From contig NZ_FQZU01000001.1 in assembly GCF_900142135.1 (NCBI RefSeq), positions 161,653 to 225,652 of the forward strand: a DNA stretch of 64,000 nucleotides. Reading direction: 5' to 3'. The position numbers and the translations under genes were made by a program. This stretch comes from Desulfatibacillum alkenivorans DSM 16219. Its GTDB lineage: Bacteria > Desulfobacterota > Desulfobacteria > Desulfobacterales > Desulfatibacillaceae. Below are positions 31,667-37,133 of this stretch, one piece after another. The notes beneath the pieces are model-generated. The model made no database searches. It was given only the letters and a program-made list of their open reading frames with translations, and was not told the origin of the DNA. Positions within the stretch are counted from its first letter, which is position 1, and each line of letters opens with the position of its first letter.

Positions 31667-32596
31667 ATGAACCCCATCCACATACACACCCCTCTTTTGG
31701 AACACCGCCTGTTGGGCGAGGCTATAGGCCGGAAAATTCTCCTAAAAATGGAATGCCTGCAGCCGCCGGGATCGTTCAAGATCCGCGGCGTGGGATATCT
31801 TTGTCAAAAAGCCGTGGAACGGGGCGTGACTCACCTGATCTCATCCTCTGCGGGCAACGCTGGCTACGCCACGGCCTATGCGGGGCGAAAACTGGGCGTG
31901 AAAGTCACCGTCGTCGCGCCGGAAAGCTCTTCCCCGCGGGCCAGGGAACTGATTCAATCGGAGAAAGCGGAACTCATCATCCACGGCAAGGCCTGGGACG
32001 ACGCCCATGTCCGCGCCCAGGAATGCCTGTTGGATGAAACATGCGCCTATGTGCCTCCTTTTGACCACCCGGACCTATGGACCGGCCATTCCTCTTTGGT
32101 GGACGAACTGGCCGGGCAATGCGGCAAGCCCGACGCCGTGGTTCTTTCCGTGGGAGGGGGCGGGCTTTTGTGCGGGGTCCTGGAAGGCATGGAGCGCCAT
32201 GAGTGGAAGGACGTTCCGGTGATAGCCGCGGAAACCAAAGGCGCGGACTCCTTCGCCCAATCCGTGGCGCAAGGCTCGCTGGTGCACCTGGACGCCATCA
32301 CTTCCATCGCCCAAAGCCTGGGCGCCAAGACAGCCTCTCAGGCAGCCCTGGACTGGACCTTTCGCCATGAAGTGAGGCCGATCGTGGTCTCGGATAAGGA
32401 CGCGGTCAAGGCTTGCCTGGCCTTTGCGGAAGACCGGAAAGTATTGGTGGAGCCTGCGTGCGGAGCGTCTTTGGCGGTTGTTTATGACGATCTGCCGCCT
32501 TTGCAGGATGCGGAAAAAATTGTGGTTATCGTGTGCGGGGGGATTGGCGTGACTTTGAACCGGATGTGGGCGTGGAAAAAGGAGTTCGGGCTGTAA
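31667..32596 (+). CDS. PLP-dependent serine/threonine dehydratase-like enzyme
   Basis: The 309-residue fold-type II PLP enzyme has the PLP lysine at K38 in PGSFKIRG, the substrate loop SSSAGNAGYA at about 59-68, and the phosphate-binding loop SVGGGGLLCG near 160. The sequence and length resemble the short L-serine dehydratases (eukaryote-like SDH) that turn serine into pyruvate and ammonia; a threonine dehydratase or racemase activity is also possible. There is no C-terminal ACT regulatory domain, so a catabolic role is more likely than isoleucine synthesis. GGAG stands about 10 bases before the ATG. It has its own transcription unit between two terminators. Confidence 0.88.
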   Translation: MNPIHIHTPLLEHRLLGEAIGRKILLKMECLQPPGSFKIRGVGYLCQKAVERGVTHLISSSAGNAGYATAYAGRKLGVKVTVVAPESSSPRARELIQSEKAELIIHGKAWDDAHVRAQECLLDETCAYVPPFDHPDLWTGHSSLVDELAGQCGKPDAVVLSVGGGGLLCGVLEGMERHEWKDVPVIAAETKGADSFAQSVAQGSLVHLDAITSIAQSLGAKTASQAALDWTFRHEVRPIVVSDKDAVKACLAFAEDRKVLVEPACGASLAVVYDDLPPLQDAEKIVVIVCGGIGVTLNRMWAWKKEFGL

Positions 32597-32681: not shown

Positions 32682-33170
32682 TTAAAATTGCTGGGGAATG
32701 TCCCCGCCGGCCGTTAAGCAGGTTACGGTGATTACCAGATTGTCCCCGTCTCCCGGGGTCAGCCCCGTGCAGTCGCAGTATGTGGGATCGCCGTGCAATA
32801 TATCCGCAATTGCCCTTTGCCTGTTGGTTTTTCCGCGGCAAATGGCTTTGGAAACCGTAAGAAAGGCTCCGATGGCATCGCCTTGAATTGCTACCGAGGG
32901 GTCAGAGCTTCCGTCCGAGACGCCCACTACGCGAAATGAAAGGCGTTGCCCCGGTCCAATTCCTAGTAGATTGAAGGTCCATGCCGTATCAGTCGCCGCG
33001 GAGGGAGGAAGTGTTATGCCATCAAGGGAGGCTATGACTCTTTTGATGGTCCCTCCGTTCAGTGAGACAATCACGGAGTCGCCGACCGGAACGGGGGCTC
33101 CAACCGACCCCGTCACGGGCAAGCCAATGCAAGCCGCAAAAACCAACAGCCCTAACAATACTTTTTTCAT
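32682..33170 (-). CDS. Secreted four-cysteine protein, paralog 1
   Basis: The 162-residue protein has a signal peptide (MKKVLLGLLVFAACIGLPV). The ATG at 33170 follows AGGAGGGG at 33177-33183. The mature part is a predicted beta-rich domain of about 140 residues. Its C-terminal block ICRGKTNRQR, ADILHG, YCDCTGLTPGDGDNLVITV is shared with the proteins at 33832 and 34730. The cysteine that follows RQR in the two paralogs is Ala here, and an extra Cys appears near the C-terminus (VTC), so the mature protein still has four. I know no named family. The paired cysteines suggest disulfides in the periplasm or outside the cell. It is the most diverged of the three. Confidence 0.8.
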   Translation of the reverse strand: MKKVLLGLLVFAACIGLPVTGSVGAPVPVGDSVIVSLNGGTIKRVIASLDGITLPPSAATDTAWTFNLLGIGPGQRLSFRVVGVSDGSSDPSVAIQGDAIGAFLTVSKAICRGKTNRQRAIADILHGDPTYCDCTGLTPGDGDNLVITVTCLTAGGDIPQQF

Positions 33171-33525
33171 GATTACCCCTCCTGCATGATAGGAAATGTC
33201 AACCGCCATGTGCGAGTTCTCTTTAAAAAAAGACGTATGCAGACAATTATGCGGCCTATATTCCTGAAAAACAGAATGGGGTCAATTGAAATGAACAGGC
33301 GGACGAAAAAACTTGAAAAAGTGCTTTTAATGTCATTATGGCTTGTAAATAATTTGCTATTTAATGATTTTTTATTGGTGTAATCCCATGCAGCCCGAGA
33401 AAACGGCTTTTTTTAAAAGGAAAAGAGGGACGAGGGGCCGCCTCTGCTAGAAGGGGCGGAAATCGCGGAGACGACTCTTAATGCCTTTTTGTGAAGAGTA
33501 CGCCGGCGAACGGAAGATCAAGGGC
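33171..33525. other. 355-base spacer upstream of paralog 1
   Basis: This spacer is rich in A and T and lies between the zinc-ribbon gene and paralog 1, both on the minus strand. A TTGACA occurs at about 33194-33199 on the minus strand, too close to the ribosome site to be a -35 box. I see no gene. Confidence 0.5.
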
Positions 33526-33768
33526 TTACCCGTTGGAGGGATGGACGATAGCGCCAGTGCGTTCATTCCATCGGCGGCCGCAGGCCTTGCAATGCCAGTC
33601 GGGCGAGGATTTGTTCCGGCGGCATTCGCCGAGAATCACCTCGCCCTTTAAATGCAGAAGATAGACAGCTATGGGCGGGGATCCGTAAATGATGCGGATC
33701 CCCGCCTTTTTTGCGCAGAAGGGGCAATGGCGCTGGCCGATCATTGATTGGTCTTCGGTCATGGCCAT
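33526..33768 (-). CDS. Small zinc-ribbon protein
   Basis: The 80-residue cytosolic protein has two C-x2-C pairs, CPFC near residue 15 and CKAC near 60, the second within WHCKACGRRWNE. This is a zinc ribbon, like those of small nucleic-acid-binding or adaptor proteins. AAAGGTGG precedes the ATG. It lies between paralogs 1 and 2 of the four-cysteine proteins on the same strand, 63 bases after paralog 2, but has no signal peptide. Its coding sequence contains a perfect 12-bp inverted repeat that looks like a terminator on the other strand. The exact role is unknown. Confidence 0.75.
   Translation of the reverse strand: MAMTEDQSMIGQRHCPFCAKKAGIRIIYGSPPIAVYLLHLKGEVILGECRRNKSSPDWHCKACGRRWNERTGAIVHPSNG
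33674..33712 (+). terminator. Terminator-like hairpin on the plus strand inside the zinc-ribbon gene
   Basis: GGCGGGGATCCG (33674-33685) pairs perfectly with CGGATCCCCGCC (33695-33706), with a 9-base loop and six T residues directly after. It points opposite to the gene that contains it. The ends match the hairpin at 34591-34626. Confidence 0.6.
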
Positions 33769-33831
33769 ATTCCACCTTTAGGAGGATTTGCCTGATTTTG
33801 TCAGTCCCGGCATTACCGTGCAGTCGCCGCC

Positions 33832-34314
33832 CTAAAAAACATCGTTGGGGATGCTGGATATGGCGCCAAGCACTTCGCCGACCACCCGGATGACCAGCTT
33901 GTCCCCGGCGGAAGGAGTCATGCCGGTGCAGTCGCAATAATCCGTAACTCCGTTAAGGATATCTGCGTTGCAGCGCTGCCTGTTGGACTTGTCCCGGCAG
34001 ACGCCTTTGGAAACGTCCACATCGCCGCTTACTTCCACGGCAGGGGCTCCGGCGCCGTCCGCCGCGCCTAAAATGCGTACGCTCACGGGAACTCCTGCAG
34101 GCGCCCCGCCCAGGTCGTAGGTCCATGAGGTGGGGGAGGTGGAAGTCGGGCTGATGGTGGCGCCGCCAACTTGGGCCACCGCTTTGGTGATGGTTGCATT
34201 AACCGTATCAATGGTTAATGAACCGCTTCCCGGGGCGGATGCCGCCCAAACAATGGGGGCCGCAATAATGGCGCACCCAAGCAGAACAATTGCCATGTTC
34301 ATCAACTTCTTCAT
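33832..34314 (-). CDS. Secreted four-cysteine protein, paralog 2
   Basis: The 160-residue protein has a signal peptide (MKKLMNMAIVLLGCAIIAAP) and a GGAGGG site before its ATG. The mature domain starts with a Thr/Ser-rich stretch, and carries VSGDVDVSKGVCRDKSNRQR, then a Cys, ADILNG, YCDCTGMTPSAGDKLVIRV. Four mature cysteines are present, all in the C-terminal half. The block from VCRDK to LVIRV is almost identical to that of paralog 3, which suggests a recent duplication or gene conversion, while the N-terminal half has diverged. No established domain is recognised; secretion and disulfide bonding are inferred. Confidence 0.8.
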   Translation of the reverse strand: MKKLMNMAIVLLGCAIIAAPIVWAASAPGSGSLTIDTVNATITKAVAQVGGATISPTSTSPTSWTYDLGGAPAGVPVSVRILGAADGAGAPAVEVSGDVDVSKGVCRDKSNRQRCNADILNGVTDYCDCTGMTPSAGDKLVIRVVGEVLGAISSIPNDVF

Positions 34315-34729
34315 GACTACCCTCCTTTTTATGTAAGATGCAAAATAAGTATGGAAAAAACCTTCTCAACCAAAGTCGATAGGATTGTTTTTCAAAGGCT
34401 TCCCACGGAGTATATTGGAGTTTCGAATATGTTTAAATAATTGCGAACATGGGGGGGGGAGTCAAGAGAAAAGGTGAAAACCGGCCTAAAAACGCCAAGG
34501 CGCCGGGATTTTAAGCTGCCTAACGGCGATAGTTTTCAAGCAGGGGGCTTTCGGGGACAGCCGGGAGGTCGTTTTTGGAAGGGAGAGATGGGCGGGGAGC
34601 CGCAATTGGAATCCCCGCCTTTTTTTCACAAGTATTTTGGATGCTGAGCGGCTTTCTTACGGCTTTCCATCCCCTTTTCAGAGGGACGGTGCAGCGATGG
34701 AAGCCTGGCCCTATCGTTCTTCCATTGTG
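34315..34729. other. 415-base spacer between paralogs 2 and 3
   Basis: The upstream part is AT-rich and may hold the paralog 2 promoter. The part from 34441 on is GC-richer and ends in a strong plus-strand terminator at 34591-34626. An open plus-strand frame runs through it but has no recognisable product. Confidence 0.5.
34591..34626 (+). terminator. Strong plus-strand terminator between two minus-strand genes
   Basis: GGCGGGGA (34591-34598) pairs with TCCCCGCC (34612-34619), followed by seven T residues. No plus-strand gene is known upstream, so it may end an antisense or small RNA. Confidence 0.75.
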
Positions 34730-35215
34730 TTAAAAGACATCACGAGGAACATCGGACTCCGCGCCTGCAACTTCTCCCATAACCCGAATGACCAGCTTGT
34801 CCCCGGCGGATGGGGTCATGCCGGCGCAGTCGCAATAATCCGTTGCTCCGTCAAGGATGTCTGCATTGCAGCGTTGCCTGTTGGATTTATCCCGGCAGAC
34901 GCCCTTGGTCACGTCAACATCTCCCGTTACAGAAACACTGGGCTCTCCGGCGCCGTCAGCCACGGCAAGTACACGCAGATTCACGGGAGTTCCAGCGCCG
35001 GCTCCATCCAGGTCGAAAGTCCACTGCGTGTCGGAATCCTGAACCCCGCTGGCGTTGGCGCCGCCGACTTTGGCCACGACCTTGGTGATGACGGCGTTAT
35101 TGGAAGATACAACAAAGGAGTCGCCTCCACCAATAGCGCTAGCGGTTATGGCGACGGGCGCCGCCAAAATGGCGCAGCCCAGCAATACTATGAGTAAATT
35201 CAACAGCTTTTTCAT
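34730..35215 (-). CDS. Secreted four-cysteine protein, paralog 3
   Basis: The 161-residue protein starts at ATG 35215 after a GAGGAG site, with signal peptide MKKLLNLLIVLLGCAILAAP, itself very like that of paralog 2. The mature part has GDSFVVSSNNAVITKVVAKV and the shared block VTKGVCRDKSNRQRC, ADILDG, YCDCAGMTPSAGDKLVIRV. Four mature cysteines match paralog 2 in position. With paralogs 1 and 2 it forms a local family expansion. The function is unknown; a surface, periplasmic or pilus-associated role would fit but nothing in the sequence decides it. Confidence 0.8.
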   Translation of the reverse strand: MKKLLNLLIVLLGCAILAAPVAITASAIGGGDSFVVSSNNAVITKVVAKVGGANASGVQDSDTQWTFDLDGAGAGTPVNLRVLAVADGAGEPSVSVTGDVDVTKGVCRDKSNRQRCNADILDGATDYCDCAGMTPSAGDKLVIRVMGEVAGAESDVPRDVF

Positions 35216-35417: not shown

Positions 35418-37091
35418 TTAGACAACCCATACCGAGTGTATATAACGAGAATCCAATGCTTCCAGGCGAACCCTGCCGTACTGCTCCTCCAGGGAGTCAA
35501 ACAGTCCGGTCAGGGCATGGCCCCAGGTCCGGCCGATTTCCTCCGGCGATCTTTTGGTTTGCAAAGCCAGCCATTCCAGGAATTTGTGCTTCATGGAATC
35601 CCGGACCATGTGCTCCGCCGGGTCGAAAAGCTCCTGGAAAAACGCCTTTAAGCCTTCCAGGGACAAAGGCTCAACCACGGAGCCCTTTCCGAGGAGATCG
35701 TTGGCCCATGGCGTCAAAAGCAGGTTCTCGCAATTCAGTTTTTTTGAATCGGGCAGGCTTTTGAGGCAATTCATGCGGGCGAAGAGGCCGTCCAGGGCGA
35801 TGATGCCGTCCAGGATTTTTTCGCAGTCCTCCACGTCCTTGCGGCTTGAAAAATCGCGGTACAGGGCGCCGGATTGATAGTTGTCGTAGACCAGGGGCTT
35901 GTCCAAAAGCAAACCGCCCAGTACGCCCAGGCGCTCTTCACCCCAGAAGGACAAAGGCAGGCCGTTTTTTTGGAACCAGGAATCCCTGCGCCATTTCTGC
36001 GCCTTGAACTTCAGGTTTAAGGCCAGGCCGAACCCCGCCTGAAAGATTTCCGTAAGGGGATGATTGCGGATGGATGCCGCCGGCGCCTCGCCGGTTTTCT
36101 CCCGGATTTCCTCCAGACCCATATTCAGGTAGCCGCTGGTTTTCTTGACGAATTTTTGCAGATCCTCCCGGGAGTGCAGCTTCACCTTATCCGCGGCGAT
36201 GACCTGATTGCACAGGGCCGCAAACTCCGACTGAATGAGCCGGGCTATGTTCGGATCGTCCACGGCGGCCAGGGATTGGGAAAACCGGTTTTCCCCCTTG
36301 GCGAAATGATTGGACAAAAAGGGCTGGGCGTAGCCGGGCCCGTCCTGGGCGGCCAGAATTTTTTTCGGCCGATGGGCAAGGGTCTCGGCGTCCAGCTTCT
36401 GGTAGATGGCCGCCGCCTCGTGAGGCGGGGTGAATCCCCGTTCCGCCAGACGCACATTGCGGATGCGAAAAAGGTTCTCCTCGGTCTCCGAAGGAATCAC
36501 CCCGTGGAGTTCAAACATCATCTTGTGGAAATAGGTGTAATCCATCTCCGCCATGAGCTTGAGGATTTCCCGGGTCATGTCGTCCAGGTCGGGCAGGTTT
36601 TTATCTTCCGTCAGCTCCGAATCCTTGATCTTGATGTAAATAGCGCCGTCCAAAGAAAAGTAGCCTTCCGGCAATTCGCTGGGGTCCTGGTCGTGCTCCA
36701 GGAAAAGCACGGAAACGTTTTCGTACATCCACATTTCCAGAAGATCGGCTTCCACCGTGGCCATCCACTTGACCAGCCTTTCCGGATCGGCGGCCAGCAT
36801 TTTATCCATCCAGGACACCAGGGCTTTCTGGTCGACCCGGTCGTTTTTCCAGATGTCCACGTCCATGAGGTATTGCCATTGGCGGGTGGAAGCCAGGGAC
36901 AGGACGGGCAAGCAGTCGTCCAGGCCGATTTCATGGATTAAAAAATACAGATCCTGGGCGGAAAAGGATTTCACCAGGGCGCCGGCTTTGGGATGGGAAA
37001 TAATGGCGTCCAGGGCCTCCTGGGCCGGCATTTCCAGGATTTGCTCCCGGGTGTTTTCAAGGGACAGGGGCTGTTTTTTTTCTATATCCAT
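35418..37091 (-). CDS. DUF6178 family protein
   Basis: The 557-residue soluble protein lacks a signal peptide and membrane segments. I recognise it as a DUF6178 protein, a family found mainly in sulfate-reducing and related deltaproteobacteria; its function is unknown. Visible parts are an N-terminal region with LENTREQILEMPAQEALDAI, a repeated pattern of helices, and conserved stretches such as HKMMFELHGVIPSETEENLF. I start at ATG 37091 (MDIEKKQPLS) with GGTGA upstream, because the frame upstream runs through a dispersed repeat. An in-frame ATG at 37112 is also possible. The gene stands alone, convergent to nothing and downstream of an AmpG-like gene. Confidence 0.75.
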   Translation of the reverse strand: MDIEKKQPLSLENTREQILEMPAQEALDAIISHPKAGALVKSFSAQDLYFLIHEIGLDDCLPVLSLASTRQWQYLMDVDIWKNDRVDQKALVSWMDKMLAADPERLVKWMATVEADLLEMWMYENVSVLFLEHDQDPSELPEGYFSLDGAIYIKIKDSELTEDKNLPDLDDMTREILKLMAEMDYTYFHKMMFELHGVIPSETEENLFRIRNVRLAERGFTPPHEAAAIYQKLDAETLAHRPKKILAAQDGPGYAQPFLSNHFAKGENRFSQSLAAVDDPNIARLIQSEFAALCNQVIAADKVKLHSREDLQKFVKKTSGYLNMGLEEIREKTGEAPAASIRNHPLTEIFQAGFGLALNLKFKAQKWRRDSWFQKNGLPLSFWGEERLGVLGGLLLDKPLVYDNYQSGALYRDFSSRKDVEDCEKILDGIIALDGLFARMNCLKSLPDSKKLNCENLLLTPWANDLLGKGSVVEPLSLEGLKAFFQELFDPAEHMVRDSMKHKFLEWLALQTKRSPEEIGRTWGHALTGLFDSLEEQYGRVRLEALDSRYIHSVWVV

Positions 37092-37133
37092 GGTTGATTC
37101 ACCAATTTGCATAAAGACTGTTTCACGGCTTTT

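Follow-up and report, generated by a model that had tools for sequence, protein, structure and literature searches.

Gene content of the locus

The window analysed here is a 64,000-nucleotide stretch of the Desulfatibacillum alkenivorans DSM 16219 genome. It carries three minus-strand genes, named p1, p2 and p3, whose reading frames are intact and whose lengths and coordinates had been given correctly in a preliminary description of this DNA (Table 1). A purine-rich, SD-like stretch is found close upstream of each ATG (GGAGG for p1 and p2, GAGGAG for p3). The N-termini of all three products are basic and then hydrophobic, so that, judged by eye, the proposed signal peptides are probable. A zinc-ribbon gene is indeed located between p1 and p2 on the same strand, 63 bp from the end of p2. 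The start codon of the DUF6178 gene at 37121 is not settled, as the ORF extends to 37289.

Table 1 Genes at the locus, with positions in the window
Gene	Position	Strand	Description
Paralog 1 (p1)	32682..33170	minus	162 aa, ATG, apparently exported; most diverged copy
Paralog 2 (p2)	33832..34314	minus	160 aa, ATG, apparently exported
Paralog 3 (p3)	34730..35215	minus	161 aa, ATG, apparently exported; next downstream of DUF6178
Zinc-ribbon gene	33526..33768	minus	80 aa; no signal peptide seen
DUF6178 gene	35418..37121	minus	PF19676, E 1.5e-171; conserved upstream neighbour
PALP (pyridoxal-phosphate dependent enzyme)	31667..32596	plus	PF00291, E 1.9e-70; converging neighbour

A consensus scan of the region revealed four promoter-like sites (2.2 expected) and three terminator-like sites (4.2 expected). 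An inverted repeat of 15 pairs, with a T run after it on the plus strand, was detected at 33673-33707 within the zinc-ribbon coding region, over the codons for IRIIYGSPP. This repeat could be a terminator for plus-strand transcription, or it may simply follow from the codons, since the count of terminator-like sites does not exceed that in shuffled sequences.

Three full-length paralogs and one homologue in a second Desulfatibacillum genome

When p1 was used as query against its own genome, p3 was matched at E 5.0e-31 and p2 at E 2.6e-28; p2 in turn matched p3 at E 1.4e-66. Identity over the full length was 69% for p2-p3, 45% for p1-p3 and 40% for p1-p2 (p3 entered the multiple alignments and family scans without Met1; these identities and the codon-level comparisons used its full 161 aa). 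The three proteins are thus homologous along their entire length, well beyond chance, and neither the p1 query nor a profile of the family found more than these three copies in the genome.

Outside the window's genome, one homologue was found, a single-copy gene with an intact frame in a Desulfatibacillum MAG (G001), encoding 157 aa with 53% identity to p2. Matches were obtained in 2 of 59 related genomes, both from Desulfatibacillum, and the profile search of these two genomes returned the known copies and one further G001 match at E 0.58. The class and phylum genome sets were samples that overlap. At E <= 0.1, matches occurred in nine of the 389 genomes of the class sample, two of them the genus members; the other seven had E values of 0.012-0.094 per single genome, of which several are expected by chance over 389 genomes. 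The one of these seven that was inspected (E 0.033), a 186-codon stop-to-stop frame, was taken as a chance match because it is overlapped by a 469-codon frame and has no CxC pair. In the phylum sample of 395 genomes, four had a match at E <= 0.01, again including the two genus members. The remaining two (E 0.0045 and 0.0092 per genome, corresponding to ~1.8 and ~3.6 expected matches over 395 genomes) were rejected as relatives, because they are proteins of 557-584 aa matching only the first 90 profile positions.

As a side observation, these faint matches to the family profile lie in the N-terminal part of two exported-looking proteins of 584 and 557 aa (L039, 85-1839; L040, 88-1761; both minus), which come from two phylum genomes of different families and both end in QSPQF.

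Short peptide patterns, which can miss distant relatives, were also used to scan genome_contigs (28 stretches) and viral_contigs (40 stretches), and no relative was found; a second genome_contigs scan yielded 35 stretches with one relative, the G001 contig itself (G001:C90). With p2 alone as query, tblastn returned no match from phages or plasmids, and literature searches on Desulfatibacillum brought up no description of such a family. Altogether, homologues do exist outside the locus, in the form of the G001 gene, but no credible member was detected beyond the genus; so far as searched, the family is narrow and confined to two Desulfatibacillum genomes.

Genomic neighbourhood and the zinc-ribbon gene

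The surroundings of the G001 gene match those in the window, with the order MFS transporter, DUF6178, family gene and zinc ribbon, followed on the opposite strand by PALP and phosphofructokinase. The syntenic place holds three copies in the D. alkenivorans window vs one in G001, where no counterpart of p1 lies between zinc ribbon and PALP. Of nine genomes from the taxonomic family, all had DUF6178, and the two genus members alone had PALP (at E <= 1e-20); the surroundings of p1, p2 and p3 are thus in part peculiar to the genus as well.

Both genus members have the zinc ribbon next to and downstream of a family gene and, given the 63 bp gap, p2 and the zinc-ribbon gene may be co-transcribed. 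Its product resembles Zn_ribbon_11 (PF11682) in the cysteine knuckles, with a score of 17.6 bits that does not reach the gathering cut-off of 24 bits. In G001 the start of the zinc-ribbon gene is not settled, and extra N-terminal residues in the alignment may be unreal. Relatives of the zinc ribbon were detected in five further genomes among 291 in the class, with other neighbours, and the flanks of these genes (loci of 1.7-3.2 kb) contained no family member.

These data bear on one reading of the locus, according to which exported proteins with two disulfides form a system with the zinc ribbon and had their 3' halves homogenized by gene conversion. Of the recurrent clustering with the zinc ribbon that this reading involves, the adjacency in both genus members was found, but the absence of the family from the examined flanks in five class genomes speaks against it, and a system of zinc ribbon and family protein beyond the genus is not indicated. 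Together with the results on gene conversion and cysteines given below, we consider this reading quite improbable.

We also inspected 254 ATG-started ORFs of at least 40 aa from DUF6178 loci (seven, all outside the genus) and zinc-ribbon loci (six, of which two represent one place), and none matched the profile better than E 1.4. When eight of these loci were viewed with less stringent criteria, for hydrophobic N-termini or a CxC, nothing was taken as a member. Near DUF6178, two other genomes of one genus within the taxonomic family (G004, G007) encode exported-looking proteins of 229 and 265 aa (L030, 681-1370, minus; L031, 3291-4088, plus), the sequences of which are unrelated to the family.

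Divergence of the copies and conservation of the C-terminal block

Pairwise dN/dS values within the family ranged from 0.22 to 0.38, and the frames are therefore under constraint by purifying selection. At the same time, the family changes faster than its neighbour genes: dN was 0.43 between p2 and the G001 homologue, compared with 0.13 for PALP and 0.21 for DUF6178 between the same species. The dS of p2-p3 (1.14) is like that of the neighbour genes between the species (1.10 and 1.14). Thus, the p2/p3 duplication is approximately as old as the species split, and the idea of a recent duplication was not borne out. For p1, dS reached 2.1-2.5, near saturation, which suggests that p1 either is an older copy, since lost from the other species, or has changed faster.

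A C-terminal block, for which we chose residues 98-147 of p2 as boundaries, was compared with the part preceding it. Identity was higher in the block in all three pairs, with 30/49 vs 28/97 for p1-p2, 28/49 vs 36/97 for p1-p3 and 45/50 vs 57/97 for p2-p3, confirming that the N-terminal part has diverged more. The block is present in all three proteins as proposed, but its motifs VCRDKSNRQR and PSAGDKLVIRV occur verbatim only in p2 and p3; the equivalents in p1 are ICRGKTNRQR and PGDGDNLVITV. Eleven positions are invariant in all four sequences, i.e. the three paralogs and the G001 homologue (in p2 numbering, C106, R107, K109, N111, R112, Q113, R114, D118, I119, C127 and C129).

The likeness of p2 and p3 in the block could in principle reflect gene conversion of the 3' halves, and the evidence for this is divided (all p values below are uncorrected). 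The two proteins differ at 5/50 block residues, and p2 and p3 differ from the homologue at 21/50 and 22/50, respectively; before the block, the differences amount to 40/97 for p2-p3 and to 46/96 and 51/96 for the pairs with the homologue. The excess of p2-p3 block sharing was pronounced when all nucleotides were counted (p 0.0003), and codon identity at shared residues was higher in the block (31/44) than before it (29/63, p 0.017); of the run tests, the best-segment test gave p 0.043. On the other hand, no excess was seen at third codon positions (p 0.34), and the longest-run test gave p 0.10. Block codon identity was likewise raised between p3 and the homologue (17/27 vs 17/47, p 0.032), a pair for which exchange between paralogs offers no explanation; the corresponding values for p2 and the homologue were 18/28 vs 22/50 (p 0.10), and no increase was observed in the p1 pairs. 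Selection on the protein is thus a simpler cause of the block pattern than gene conversion.

Domain searches and predicted fold

No significant match to the family came from Pfam, NCBIfam, PHROGs or PDB sequences, and the view that the block belongs to no known family holds for Pfam and NCBIfam, where nothing exceeded the cut-offs. The weak matches were to DUF7363 (PF24063; p3 residues 26-98, 13.1 bits against a cut-off of 28.3 bits), found with one of four family members, and to Ig_like_ice (NF012196; p1 residues 18-51, 14.1 bits against a cut-off of 50 bits). The latter was seen with p1 alone of the three paralogs, which were the sequences covered by the NCBIfam scan. Four PHROGs families appeared with one member each (best E 0.036), and the profile search of PDB sequences returned four matches, the best of which was a designed filament (E 0.26).

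AlphaFold models were calculated for p2 (mean pLDDT 71.8, pTM 0.63) and p1 (mean pLDDT 62.1, pTM 0.60), both from one and the same set of four sequences, so that they are not independent. The p2 model is a beta-sandwich of moderate confidence, with pLDDT values of 84-92 by block over residues 31-100, and the p1 model repeats its strands except in the cysteine segment. The first six strands comprise identical residue numbers in both models (32-38, 40-49, 52-54, 56-59, 63-67 and 76-85); the seventh is predicted at 92-96/97 and the last at 139-148 in p2 and 144-153 in p1. Between the last two long strands comes the cysteine segment, which takes the form of short strands in the p2 model and includes a helix (115-124) in that of p1; pLDDT falls below 50 in this loop (p2 118-122, p1 114-135). 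Hence, of the consistent fold with two disulfides that had been anticipated, the models provide the beta-sandwich, but the cysteine segment is poorly modelled and differs between them.

In structure comparisons of the p2 model with VIA-align 2, the highest Z score, 6.1, was obtained for L,D-transpeptidase chains (70-71 residues, 2.1-2.6 A) and tied with the unrelated myeloid-derived growth factor (Z 6.0); values below 8 may reflect a common arrangement alone. The alignment covers the N-terminal part of these chains, which we take to be an Ig-like domain. With Foldseek, neither model had a hit at E <= 0.001. The top of the p2 list consisted mostly of M1 aminopeptidases and not of Ig domains, with L,D-transpeptidase chains at E 0.24 or worse; for p1, these chains formed the top rows at E 0.02. 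Viral structures gave no match at E <= 0.001. The mycobacterial L,D-transpeptidases LdtMt2 and LdtMt5 (PDB 5d7h, 4zfq) resemble the family proteins in the arrangement of the beta-sandwich at 6-7% identity. A match of this strength is within the reach of a common arrangement, and there is no sequence similarity between these chains and the family. Unlike them, the family proteins of 160-162 aa, which have no Pfam match above cut-off, lack the catalytic domain. The predicted fold is tentatively read as an Ig-like arrangement, which need not reflect common descent.

Cysteines, export and possible function

The mature parts of p1, p2 and p3 contain four cysteines each, as previously described, but only three of the positions are common. 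These are C111, C132 and C134 in p1, C106, C127 and C129 in p2, and C107, C128 and C130 in p3. The fourth is non-homologous: C151 in p1 is placed elsewhere than C115 of p2 and C116 of p3, which both stand at the RQRC position. The first shared cysteine directly precedes the RxKxNRQR run and the CxC pair follows 21 residues later in all four sequences; the G001 homologue has just the three shared mature cysteines. Judged from these four sequences, possession of four cysteines is not a defining trait of the family. Two conserved disulfides are unsupported, because the fourth cysteine is non-homologous and missing in the other species, and one disulfide is possible.

Our tentative reading, to which we give slightly less than an even chance, is that the family comprises exported proteins with a single Ig-like beta-sandwich and a disulfide-pinned charged loop that have a binding role in the cell envelope or at the cell surface. 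Such a protein would be synthesized with a signal peptide and leave the cytoplasm, presumably through Sec, with cleavage by signal peptidase I most likely behind an AxA- or VxA-type site around residue 25-27. The mature protein would then fold into the sandwich. Its CRxKxNRQRxxxDI...CxC segment would form a loop that connects the last two long strands, and one disulfide, linking the first cysteine with either cysteine of CxC, would pin this loop to the sandwich. The conserved charged loop might serve as the shared working face, through which the copies bind an envelope partner or ligand that is common to them. The faster-changing sandwich would vary between copies, and every copy in the window has one extra cysteine.

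The signal peptide also allows another reading. Cys14 is invariant in all four sequences, although signal peptides usually vary, and its context (LLGC in three, FAAC in p1) is one that we take to be lipobox-like. Cys14 might thus be lipidated and anchor the proteins in the membrane. Yet the hydrophobic stretch continues beyond Cys14 to about residue 25, where it ends in AxA- or VxA-like sites, and residue 14 falls one short of the range of 15-35 in which the PROSITE lipoprotein rule expects the lipidated cysteine. Four related sequences are also too few to take the invariance of Cys14 as constraint, and we regard a lipoprotein as unlikely.

A similarly small chance is given to a metal-binding envelope protein, in which the first cysteine, CxC and nearby acidic residues (YCDC, ECEC) would form a metal site instead of a disulfide, with the fourth cysteine as a movable, optional extra ligand. 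The three cysteines common to all members, and the only ones in the homologue, are an odd number for disulfides and would fit such a site. However, His (0-1) and Met (0-2) are scarce in the mature proteins, in contrast to typical copper or zinc sites. The searches matched no family of metal proteins, and the cysteine loop is not reliably modelled.

Implications

Desulfatibacillum are hydrocarbon-degrading sulfate reducers, and lineage-restricted exported families are common in general. The family described here carries no name in the searched libraries, is limited to one genus as far as searched, and offers a contrast of one copy vs three copies at one syntenic place. It is conceivable, if highly doubtful at present, that a genus-born envelope family combines an Ig-like sandwich with a conserved, charged three-cysteine loop at which binding is sensitive to redox state or metals, and that its copies cross-link differently via the fourth cysteine. 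The significance of the family would rise if the cysteine loop were a metal or redox site.
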